Below are positions 7,042 to 9,843 of a stretch of 64,000 nucleotides of DNA, piece by piece. Origin of the DNA: Minwuiaceae bacterium (lineage in GTDB: Bacteria; Pseudomonadota; Alphaproteobacteria; Minwuiales; Minwuiaceae). Positions within the stretch are counted from its first letter, which is position 1. Each line of letters opens with the position of its first letter. Below the pieces are notes generated by a model. It did not search any database and was not told the DNA's origin. It saw nothing but the letters and a program-made list of their open reading frames with translations. The position numbers and the translations under genes were made by a program. The stretch spans positions 172,560 to 236,559 of the forward strand of contig JANQEE010000030.1 in assembly GCA_028278525.1 (NCBI GenBank). The letters are read 5' to 3'.

Positions 7042-7461
7042 ATGACGTTGGGCCAACGCCTGCATCGGCTGATGCGATCGTTCCTCGGGCTGCCGCTTTG
7101 GGTGCAGGCTTGGATGACGGTGCTGATCGGCACCAACCTGGCCGCGTTCTGGATGCTGGACACCGCGGTCGGCTTTTGGACCGCGGTGGCTTTGGTCGTC
7201 ATGATGGCGTTCAACGGGCCGATGATGGTGGTCCAGGCGGGGATGACGCGATTGTTATCGATCCCGCATTTCGTTTGGTTGCCGTTGGCGGTTTATATCC
7301 TCTATCGCCTGTTCGGCCCGGAGCCGATCGATCGCGATAGCGCGGAGTTCGGGTATGCCGTGGCGGTGCTCGCCGTCAACGGCATCTCGCTGGCGTTCGA
7401 CGTCTACGAGAGTTACCGGTGGCTGCGCGGCGACCGGGAAGTTTTGGGAGTGGAGGCATGA
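7042..7461 (+). CDS. small multi-pass membrane protein of unknown function
   Basis: A 139-residue protein with three or four predicted membrane segments: around residues 20-38 (WVQAWMTVLIGTNLAAFWML), 43-62 (FWTAVALVVMMAFNG), about 72-88 (IPHFVWLPLAVYILYRLF) and about 101-118 (YAVAVLAVNGISLAFDV). The C-terminus is short and charged. AAGGAGG sits 9 nt before the ATG. Its stop codon overlaps the start of the next gene in an ATGA, so it is translationally coupled to the DsbA-family protein. I do not recognise a named family; the coupling suggests a shared role. Confidence 0.75.
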   Translation: MTLGQRLHRLMRSFLGLPLWVQAWMTVLIGTNLAAFWMLDTAVGFWTAVALVVMMAFNGPMMVVQAGMTRLLSIPHFVWLPLAVYILYRLFGPEPIDRDSAEFGYAVAVLAVNGISLAFDVYESYRWLRGDREVLGVEA

Positions 7462-8111
7462 CGATGTCCGATCAACTGATCTATGTGGCCGACCCGATGT
7501 GTTCGTGGTGCTGGGGTTTTTCGCCGGTGATCGAGTCGGTACGCGAGAAATTCGGCGACGCATTCGATACCCGACTGATCCTGGGCGGCCTGAGGCCCGG
7601 CACGACCAAGCCCATGGACGACAAGTCGAAGCAGACGATCCGCGATCACTGGGAACATGTGGAGACGGCGTCTGGCCAGCCGTTCGATTTCGCCTTCTTC
7701 GAGCGCAATGACTTCGTCTACGACACCGAGCCGGCCTGCCGGGCGGTCGTCGCCGCGCGGCGGCAGGACGAGGACAAGGCGTTCGCCTATCTGAAGCGCG
7801 TGCACCGCGCGTTCTATGCGGAGAACCGGGACGTGACCGAGCGGGGAGAACTGGCATCGGTGGCCGAGGACGTCGGCCTGGACCGCGCGGCTTTCGAAGC
7901 GTCGTTCGACGCGGAAGACGTGCGGACCGAGACCTGGAATGACTTCGGCCTGTCGCAGCGGTCGGGCATCACCGGGTTTCCGACCCTGCTGATCGGCAAC
8001 CGGTCGGACGGCCACGCCGTCGTGACCGTCGGTTTCCAGCCGTGGGAGGCGATCGAAGCGCGGATAGAGACCTGGCGGGCGCAACGGGCGGGGGCCGCGG
8101 CGCAGGTCTGA
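7458..8111 (+). CDS. DsbA-family (FrnE-like) thiol-disulfide oxidoreductase
   Basis: A 217-residue cytoplasmic thioredoxin-fold protein of the DsbA/FrnE type. The redox motif is DPMCSWCWGF, giving a CxxC at residues 15 and 18 directly after the first beta strand, followed by the all-helical insertion typical of DsbA and, near the C-terminus, the cis-Pro loop in ITGFPTLLIG. No signal peptide is present, as usual for FrnE-like proteins. The ATG at 7458 overlaps the preceding stop (ATGA). An upstream in-frame start at 7419 would lie inside the neighbour and precedes the fold. The next gene downstream is convergent, separated by a large palindrome. Confidence 0.88.
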   Translation: MTMSDQLIYVADPMCSWCWGFSPVIESVREKFGDAFDTRLILGGLRPGTTKPMDDKSKQTIRDHWEHVETASGQPFDFAFFERNDFVYDTEPACRAVVAARRQDEDKAFAYLKRVHRAFYAENRDVTERGELASVAEDVGLDRAAFEASFDAEDVRTETWNDFGLSQRSGITGFPTLLIGNRSDGHAVVTVGFQPWEAIEARIETWRAQRAGAAAQV

Positions 8112-8196
8112 CCGTCTTCGAAAAACTGTCGAACACGTCGGTGCGGTCATCCTTCGACAGACAAGGATGAGGCTCTGACGGGCTCAGGCCAAGCCA

Positions 8197-8284
8197 CCAC
8201 CACCGCGTCATTCCGGCGAAGGCCGGAATCCATAACAGCGGTCCGGTCTGGATTCCGGCCTTCGCCGGAATGACGCGGTGGTGG
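8197..8284. repeat. perfect 36-bp inverted repeat (REP-like palindrome, type A)
   Basis: Two 36-bp arms, 8197-8232 and 8249-8284, are exact reverse complements with a 16-bp spacer. The core CGTCATTCCGGCGAAGGCCG belongs to a palindrome type that recurs in many alphaproteobacterial genomes. It sits between convergent genes and would form a very strong hairpin in either transcript, so it probably serves as a bidirectional terminator. Just before it (about 8148-8187) is a decayed stretch resembling the CATCCTTCGA repeats found elsewhere in this window. Confidence 0.85.
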
Positions 8285-8328
8285 TTTGTCGTAAGCTTTT
8301 CGAAGGATGATCGGCCGCAGGGGGCTGG

Positions 8329-9087
8329 TTAATCGTCCCAGACTTTTTCGGGCAGCGGCAGGCCGGCGAGGTCCTTGGCGGTAAGCGGCCGGTCTGGTTG
8401 GATGTCCAAACCTTCCAGTAGCGATGTCAGTTGCCGGACATGCTGCGCGGCGTGCCAGACGGTGCGTTCCAGGACTTCGTGCAGGGGCGGCGTGCCGTAG
8501 TAGGTCGAGACCGGCGCGGTGCAGGTTTTGTCTTCATGCGCTTGCCACCAGGCAAGCGCCCGGCGGCGCACCGCCTCGCCATAGGCCGCGATGTCCTCGG
8601 TTGTCGCCATGTCGGGCGGCGGCGGGGCGACCAGCATCTCGTGCGACAGGGTTTCTCCCTGCATCGCGTCGAGAAACGCCTCCGGGATGCGAAAGATGTG
8701 ATGCATCAGGACTCTGTACGAGCGTGGCCGGTTCGGCAGCTCGGTGGCGAGTTCGGCATCGGGCATTTGCCGGCAATGGCGGACCGCGGCGGTGAGAACC
8801 GCATCGAGGCGGCCGATCAGGTCGTCCGGCGAGAGTTGCGGCGTGGCGTCGACGTCGAGACCGAGGAAAGCGGCGACGTCGCCGATGGATTGCGCGAAGA
8901 CGAATTTGCCGGCGCGGGCCACGACCGGCACGGTGCGCGCGCCGAGGCGATGCAGCGCCGCCAGACCGTCGGCATCGTCCTGAACGTTGATCGATTGAAA
9001 CCCGATCCCACGGACCGAGAGGAATTCCTTGATCCTGAGGCAGCTTGTTCAGGCGGGCTGCCAATAGACGCTGATGGGTTCAGTCAT
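8329..9087 (-). CDS. glutaredoxin-DinB fusion with in-frame TGA at the first redox position (candidate selenoprotein)
   Basis: Read from the ATG at 9087 (GAGGAG 6 nt upstream), the frame gives MTEPISVYWQPA, then TGA, then TSCLRIKEFLSVRGIGFQSI, and stays open to 8329 for 252 residues. Residues 1-75 are a glutaredoxin-like domain: YWQPxCxSC after strand 1 and the cis-Pro motif ARTVPVV around residues 50-56. The TGA is codon 13, exactly where the family has the first Cys of CxxC, so decoding as selenocysteine gives U13-T-S-C16. The C-terminal 170 residues look like a DinB four-helix domain with possible metal-binding His in LMHHIFR and WHAAQHVRQL. DinB-superfamily members include thiol-dependent transferases, so a Grx fusion is coherent. 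If TGA is a stop, only a shorter product from an internal GTG (8931) remains, without the redox motif. Simple nonsense mutation or sequencing error cannot be excluded. Confidence 0.72.
9005..9025 (-). promoter_or_regulatory. possible SECIS-like hairpin after the in-frame TGA
   Basis: Hand folding of the mRNA 24-44 nt after the TGA gives AUUCC paired with GGGAU (one G-U) closing an 11-nt loop that contains GGUC, the tetranucleotide also found in the apical loop of the E. coli fdhF SECIS. Spacing is within the usual bacterial range, but the stem is short, and the loop does not begin with the G often required. An alternative stem, AGGA with UCCU, lies at 13-29 nt after the TGA. This is suggestive only. 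Confidence 0.25.
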
Positions 9088-9135
9088 CCGATGCTCCTCA
9101 TGCCTCCGGCATCTTAGCCCGATTGCGAACGGCGT

Positions 9136-9702
9136 TCACGCAGCGCCGGGGTAAACCTGTTCACGGGAAACAATCAGGCTCTCCCAGCCCTGCGGGAGAT
9201 CGACGTGGAGCGACGCGTCCCCGACGACGGCGAATTCATGGCCGGGGCCGAGCACCATCTGCTTGCGCCAGCAGCTTGTGACGCCGCGAGCGTTGTCCAG
9301 GATCTCTTGCAGCGGCTGTTCGTAGCGGATGCCGCGCGGGCGCTTCAGCCAGATCGTTCGCGAGGCCGCCGACTGCGCGATCTCGCCGGACAGCCGGCAG
9401 TAGAGGCCGCCATGGCCGTAGTCGGTCTTGCTGGAGATGCCGGCATGCACCTCCCATCGTTCGGGCGCGACCGCGGCTTTGTTGAGCGGGTCGAGCGCCG
9501 TGGACGATTCGACGAAGCACCAGTCCTCGTAGCCCGGTGCGCCGTCGAGCCAGGGCGTCTCGGAGATGCGGTAGGTCGCCGACGAGATCAAGCCCGGCGA
9601 GCCCGACCCGCCGAGGTCCGCATGGAACGCGGCGAGCGCCGCTTCGTAATCCGTCGCCGTCACGTCGGCAAACGGTTTGTGCCAGAAGATGTAAGCCAGC
9701 AT
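9136..9702 (-). CDS. conserved hypothetical protein
   Basis: A 188-residue soluble protein beginning MLAYIFWHKPFADVTATDYE, with no signal peptide or membrane segment. The middle reads RISETPWLDGAPGYEDWCFV and IWLKRPRGIRYEQPLQEIL. It is rich in aromatic residues and looks like a compact alpha/beta protein. I do not recognise a characterised family. AAAGGA lies upstream of the ATG at 9702; an earlier in-frame start at 9738 lacks a ribosome site. It is on the same strand as, and just upstream of, the glutaredoxin-DinB gene (48 bp), so the two may be cotranscribed. The next gene upstream is divergent. Confidence 0.7.
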   Translation of the reverse strand: MLAYIFWHKPFADVTATDYEAALAAFHADLGGSGSPGLISSATYRISETPWLDGAPGYEDWCFVESSTALDPLNKAAVAPERWEVHAGISSKTDYGHGGLYCRLSGEIAQSAASRTIWLKRPRGIRYEQPLQEILDNARGVTSCWRKQMVLGPGHEFAVVGDASLHVDLPQGWESLIVSREQVYPGAA

Positions 9703-9843
9703 ATCCCGGTCCTTTTCCGTTGCGACGCCCGACCGCAACCTAGAGCAAGCGATGCGGCCGGCAAAAGAGCCAATTTGGGCGGGCGGAAGGGTCCATTCTA
9801 TAGTCGGCGATACGCGATGCGGGTTGCTTCAGGAGTTGCGGGG

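Follow-up and report, generated by a model that had tools for sequence, protein, structure and literature searches.

The locus that is described here raises the question of whether an in-frame TGA, which stands where a glutaredoxin would carry its first redox cysteine, ends the protein or encodes selenocysteine (Sec). The analysed stretch of DNA, hereafter the window, comprises 64,000 nucleotides from a Minwuiaceae bacterium, and a preliminary description of it had put forward the selenocysteine reading as a candidate. Based on the comparison of related loci, the search for the Sec insertion genes and the analysis of the RNA downstream of the codon, we consider it very probable that the TGA at 9049-9051 is read as selenocysteine, which would give a 252-residue glutaredoxin-DinB fusion with a UxxC active site. 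The fusion is likely to be a selenoprotein because the TGA aligns with a Cys or TGA codon in the relatives and because the genome has the genes for Sec insertion; the candidate reading is additionally supported by a covarying hairpin. The DinB domain, the hairpin at 9002-9018 and the wide distribution of the family go beyond what the preliminary description contained.

Reading frame and domain composition

On the minus strand, GAGGAG (9099-9094) is followed six bases on by an ATG at 9087, which opens the frame MTEPISVYWQPA-TGA-TSCLRIKEFL..., and past the TGA (9051-9049) this frame stays open for 239 codons to the TAA that ends at 8329. This arrangement, as it was given in the preliminary description, was confirmed by direct reading. 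The features of the locus are collected in Table 1.

Table 1. Features of the predicted selenoprotein gene; positions are those of the window.
Feature	Position	Strand	Remarks
Glutaredoxin-DinB fusion ORF	8329..9087	-	252 residues with TGA as a residue; ends with TAA
GAGGAG upstream of the ATG, putative ribosome-binding site	9094..9099	-	read from the sequence
In-frame TGA (codon 13), predicted to encode the Sec of UxxC	9049..9051	-	among 109 relatives, 47 have TGA and 62 have Cys
Codon TGC for Cys16, the C of UxxC; predicted resolving thiol	9040..9042	-	C16 invariant (40-sequence alignment)
Glutaredoxin domain, PF00462, residues 6-63	8899..9072	-	
DinB_2 / S-transferase-like domain, PF12867, residues 94-220	8428..8808	-	predicted metal ligands His130, His212, His216
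Predicted bacterial SECIS hairpin, type I	9002..9018	-	7-bp stem, loop GUG 9011-9009, 37 nt from TGA to loop

The glutaredoxin profile PF00462 matched residues 6-63 with 38.6 bits (cut-off 22.9) and spanned the TGA, while PF12867 (DinB_2) matched residues 94-220 with 30.8 bits (cut-off 24.8). The former was matched by all 40 of the family members and the latter, at E <= 1e-3, by 31 of them. The alignment of 40 sequences showed that P11, S15, C16 and P54 are invariant in the glutaredoxin part, in which the cis-Pro motif ARTVPVV is in frame, and that H130, H212 and H216 are invariant in the DinB part. A glutaredoxin domain upstream of the annotated start, as had been postulated, is supported by the PF00462 match across the TGA and by the proline of ARTVPVV (P54), which does not vary in these 40 sequences. 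The structure of the fusion was predicted with a pLDDT of 94.8 and a pTM of 0.90, and a structure comparison of the model gave glutaredoxin and DinB matches, with the DinB fold in its top rows. The whole model also matched glutathione S-transferases (TM about 0.3, rmsd 11-16), but these matches reflect the general layout only and we do not read them as a relationship. No NCBIfam model scored over its cut-off for the window protein, and a sequence search with the DinB part against the solved structures in the PDB returned nothing credible.

The TGA might be a true stop, in which case only a 200-residue DinB protein would be made from an internal GTG at 8931; both mechanical ORF calling and the database entry of this genome (P0001) start at that GTG. 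However, a glutaredoxin domain with the four invariant residues is conserved upstream of the GTG, 47 relatives keep the same TGA without a second stop and the RNA hairpin is conserved, which makes this explanation very unlikely.

Codon 13 in the related loci

The codon that aligns with codon 13 was TGA in 47, TGC in 38 and TGT in 24 of 109 related loci, which were the best 80 of 302 loci from the genome_contigs set and 29 loci from the same class. This count was made without two remote single-domain glutaredoxin matches (L013 and L014, both TGT), and it contains the same gene from two collections among some of its loci (107 different proteins among 110). Each of the TGA loci had exactly one in-frame stop (47/47), while the Cys loci had none (62/62). 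The alignment of homologues that had been suggested earlier thus gave a column with either TGA (47) or Cys (62), in agreement with the placement of the TGA at the first position of CxxC; the stops elsewhere in the frame of relatives, which would have spoken against Sec, were absent, with none beyond the column-13 TGA in the 109 loci.

In a sample of the class, 32 of 385 genomes matched at E <= 1e-20, and the 33 matches consisted of 19 with one TGA and 14 without a stop, the loci of three of these 14 lying outside the codon count. One of the TGA carriers, G124, is a single-contig genome that is given as 100% complete. Only two of the 398 genomes in a sample of the phylum matched and both were already known from the other sets, while further TGA forms were found in records titled Betaproteobacteria, Gammaproteobacteria, Deltaproteobacteria, Candidatus Binatia and SAR324. 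Alternatively, a Cys codon in the window's genome could have turned into TGA through a recent nonsense mutation or a sequencing error, since the change takes a single base (TGC to TGA) and Cys forms are frequent, with 62 of the 109 loci. However, the same TGA occurs in 47 of the 109 loci, G124 included, and both the Sec insertion genes and a conserved hairpin accompany it; we regard this explanation as almost certainly wrong. The presence of the TGA in many assemblies, among them the single-contig G124, answers the earlier worry that a single TGC-to-TGA mutation could mimic Sec.

A protein search returned 2041 homologues at E <= 1e-3. The closest full-length match to the window protein among the best 120 of these 2041 was a Cys form (P0002, 71%). 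This is closer than the nearest TGA form that was compared (62%) and counts against the Sec reading. Short proteins that start after the Sec/Cys position accounted for 16 of the 119 best entries (the window's own excluded), as counted on protein entries rather than DNA, and such entries are expected if gene callers truncate the TGA forms. According to the phylogenetic tree, at least five changes between Cys and Sec are needed; we claim no ancestral state, as the tree is weak in its deep branches and its long branches come together. In genome G361, a TGA copy and a stop-free copy occur together (G361:C24 and G361:C25), and they form a natural pair for comparing Sec with Cys.

Selenocysteine machinery and its possible clients

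The preliminary description had proposed to look for selA, selB, selC (tRNA-Sec) and selD, and all four were found in the window's genome, together on contig C34. SelA scored 537 bits (583 bits with TIGR00474), SelB, which is encoded directly downstream of it, scored 425.5 bits with TIGR00475 (cut-off 242.25), tRNA-Sec with the anticodon TCA scored 79.7 bits and SelD 300.7 bits. The tRNA-Sec gene (L002 9806-9901) lies about 2.4 kb downstream of selB. The selD match (G000:C34:35016-35933) is within an open frame of 752 codons, compared with the 311 positions of the selD model, and this frame is possibly a fusion.

The presence of the machinery followed the codon form, with all Fisher tests ignoring the kinship among the genomes. 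Among the genomes of the class sample, 18 of 19 with TGA had a SelA match over 400 bits, versus 3 of 13 Cys-only genomes (p 4e-5). The genome_contigs set comprised 50 genomes, namely 27 with TGA (the second copies L042 and L044 left out) and 23 that represent 23 of the 51 Cys loci; here SelA over 140 bits, with weaker matches excluded, was present in 25/27 TGA and 8/23 Cys genomes (p 2e-5) and SelB over its cut-off in 21/27 and 6/23, respectively (p 5e-4). The TGA genomes without SelA (2/27 and 1/19) are drafts, and the one from the class sample is 77% complete. The Cys genomes that hold SelA (8/23 and 3/13) indicate that having the machinery does not make the Sec form obligatory.

A frame that is open under a reassigned code, or that is passed by leaky read-through, would look alike, and the TGA could then stand for another amino acid. 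This is highly improbable, however: TGA terminates other TGA-form genes of the fusion family, the aligned residue is Cys in all 62 of the other loci and tRNA-Sec, SelA and SelB are present.

We also compared the fusion with formate dehydrogenase, since a survey from 2006 gave fdhA as the only selenoprotein gene in Sec-decoding Alphaproteobacteria, Betaproteobacteria and Pseudomonadales (PMC1794560). A Sec formate dehydrogenase (TIGR01553 over cut-off, with one TGA) was found in three of the 19 TGA genomes (G150, G336 and G413). TIGR01591 matched at E <= 1e-60 in all 19, with no TGA in any listed match. By these two models, 16 of the 19 genomes, including the window's genome and G124, show no Sec formate dehydrogenase. 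With only three of the 19 showing this enzyme, the fusion is a possible main client of the Sec decoding in these genomes, as far as a scan for formate dehydrogenase goes.

Two types of predicted SECIS hairpin

Downstream of the TGA, a type I hairpin (loop GUG, 37 nt after the TGA) was found in 38 of 48 TGA genes, the window included, and a type II hairpin with an 8-bp stem (ACGAAAGA/UCUUUCGU) and the loop GUU, 23 nt after the TGA, in the other 10. Some of the type I genes also pair six or seven of the eight type II positions. Under the same rules, type I was found in 2/62 and type II in 0/62 of the Cys genes, a contrast that is partly circular because the TGA genes themselves had served to define the rules. 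The assemblies JANQKC and JAJFJD have two TGA-form copies each (L024/L042 and L022/L044), and all four carry the type II hairpin.

The type I helix was supported by covariation: 95.0% of the cells were paired, nine cells were changed on both sides and the covariation score was 0.246 against 0.160 when shuffled, none of which was reached by any of 500 shuffles. Two measures were weaker, namely the pairs changed on both sides (3) and the further pair types (7), for which 20 and 22 of the 500 shuffles were as high. The best slid register scored 0.070, and the loop-closing pair was unpaired in nine of 34 rows. RNAalifold recovered the same helix from the 38 sequences when no structure was supplied. 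The hairpin that comes nearest by energy when the window is taken by itself (loop GAAUUCCU, spacing 21) was dropped, as RNAalifold on these 38 sequences finds the GUG hairpin.

Synonymous sites were also constrained. In 35 distinct type I genes, the synonymous identity was 1.00 at codons +12, +13 and +14 (0.34-0.44 expected) and 0.88 at codon +11 (0.23 expected), and none of 300 simulations was as high for codons +11 to +14. Codon +2 was frozen as well (0.74 versus 0.23 expected), codons +6 and +15 to +18 were moderately high (2-12 of 300 simulations) and the other 11 of the first 21 were near expectation. At alignment columns 38/46, a U-A pair is replaced by C-G in six of 34 rows, and because both of the amino acids encoded there change with it (SVRGI to SARGV), it seems to be the RNA that dictates the protein sequence here.

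The bacterial SECIS model given in PMC13188914 has a loop of 3-9 nt with a G in its first two positions, an upper stem of 4-16 bp, a distance of 16-37 nt after the UGA and an energy of <= -7.5 kcal/mol. The window hairpin fits this model, with the loop GUG, 7-8 bp, 37 nt (the upper limit) and -9.9 kcal/mol, the latter for the 21-nt element 9000-9020, for which no shuffle was as low. In a context of 53 nt, another fold was favoured (z 0.10), which argues against a hairpin that could be recognised in a single sequence. The energy filter of the published model passed 27/31 TGA and 32/51 Cys sequences; because energy alone does not discriminate the two forms, we used column-wise pairing, covariation and the codon freeze. 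An Rfam scan of 8900-9200 returned only two matches (E 1 and 4.1), both far below the gathering scores.

Gene neighbourhood

When the neighbouring ORFs of the 109 loci and of the window were grouped into clusters, the largest spanned 18 loci, so no shared operon is claimed. Among 20 neighbour proteins scanned with Pfam were TctC receptors, short-chain dehydrogenases, and products of the aconitase-like, CoA-transferase, enoyl-CoA hydratase and chromate transporter kinds. In eight TGA loci, the fusion is followed after about 110 bp by a shared gene on the same strand, and the scanned example (L029 5864-7081) is a chromate transporter (PF02417). In the window, the convergent neighbour at 7458-8111 (+) encodes a protein of the DsbA family with a thioredoxin fold (PF01323, 71.1 bits), and its CSWC motif is of the Cys type. 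Between this gene and the 3' end of the fusion gene, a perfect inverted repeat (8196-8285; arms of 37 nt, spacer of 16 nt) is a candidate for a dispersed palindromic repeat or a bidirectional terminator. The upstream same-strand ORF (9136-9738, -) had no Pfam match at E <= 0.001 for the 186 residues from 9696.

Proposed mechanism and significance

SelB carrying Sec-tRNA would bind the hairpin at 9002-9018, which has the GUG loop, and insert Sec at codon 13. In the protein, the nucleophile would be Sec13 and the resolving thiol Cys16. His130, His212 and His216 may bind a divalent metal that activates a small thiol, which in these bacteria is probably glutathione, for its transfer to, or its removal from, an organic substrate; the fused seleno-glutaredoxin could provide or recover this thiol or else reduce the product, all within one polypeptide. 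The predicted thiol-transferase function of the fusion is plausible, and the catalytic role of the DinB part is predicted from its fold and histidines only.

It is also conceivable that Sec is inserted and that the DinB domain is a substrate-binding or docking module, which would make the protein a plain seleno-glutaredoxin reductase rather than a thiol transferase. The DinB domain is divergent (an NCBIfam match in none of 17 members and no credible sequence match in the PDB), a shared fold does not show function and the neighbours point to no common pathway, all of which suits a docking role. Against it, H130, H212 and H216 are invariant in 40 sequences and follow the three-histidine pattern, with its 4-residue spacing, that PMC5815605 describes for the metal-dependent bacillithiol transferases. 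We consider the docking role rather unlikely.

For the thiol-transferase reading, we tentatively suggest, as a possibility that falls somewhat short of an even chance, that these proteins constitute a family of selenium-dependent thiol transferases which is both widespread and unlisted. One chain would combine a seleno-glutaredoxin with a domain for metal-dependent thiol transfer, dividing the labour as glutathione S-transferases do but being built from other parts. The family would keep the Sec code alive in many Alphaproteobacteria in place of formate dehydrogenase, and it would use two different SECIS hairpins at two distances. The selenocysteine reading of the fusion would by itself add a selenoprotein family that is present in 19 of the 385 sampled genomes of the class and that gene callers appear to truncate. 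The occurrence of both Sec and Cys orthologues offers a natural test of the benefit that selenium brings to a glutaredoxin linked with a thiol-transfer domain, and from the two types of hairpin the flexibility of SelB recognition could be tested.

Comparison with known systems

Sec-containing glutaredoxins are already known: one (PF00462, UxxC) is listed as experimentally verified in Table 1 of a catalogue of 119 selenoprotein families from 2026 (PMC13188914). As far as this table and the main text of the catalogue go, a glutaredoxin-DinB selenoprotein is missing from it, as the table has no such entry and the word DinB is absent from the text. A full-text literature search, judged on its listings, returned no paper on a glutaredoxin-DinB selenoprotein; Haft and Tolstoy 2025 (PMC12013261) was outside its scope. 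The GOS survey has 2 sequences under Grx and 42 under Grx-like, and fragments of the fusion could be among them. The catalogued Sec-glutaredoxin has Sec in place of the first redox Cys of a glutaredoxin domain, as is predicted for the fusion, but it is, by its description in the catalogue, a single domain, whereas in the fusion DinB follows and the family is a separate one.

In the UXX-star and HUGP/GUXX-star proteins, Sec occupies the corresponding position of a glutaredoxin-like domain that is distantly related. The window protein, which has UxxC, scored 30.8 bits with NF041212 (cut-off 66) and so lies outside UXX-star; it scored 23 bits with NF041211 (100), 22.6 with NF047338 (97) and 21 with NF045501 (325). 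Close known systems also include the Cys-type glutaredoxin-DinB fusions of Proteobacteria (for example P0039, P0060 and P0116), which databases hold under general names such as glutaredoxin or DinB family protein. They have the same two domains with Cys in place of Sec, and mostly occur in genomes in which no SelA was found (15/23 and 10/13). The DinB domain shares its fold and the three-histidine pattern with the DinB/YfiT S-transferase-like superfamily, which includes the bacillithiol transferases, mycothiol S-transferase and mycothiol-dependent maleylpyruvate isomerase. Unlike these enzymes, it stands behind a predicted seleno-glutaredoxin in bacteria that probably use glutathione, where its predicted activity would be that of a thiol transferase.
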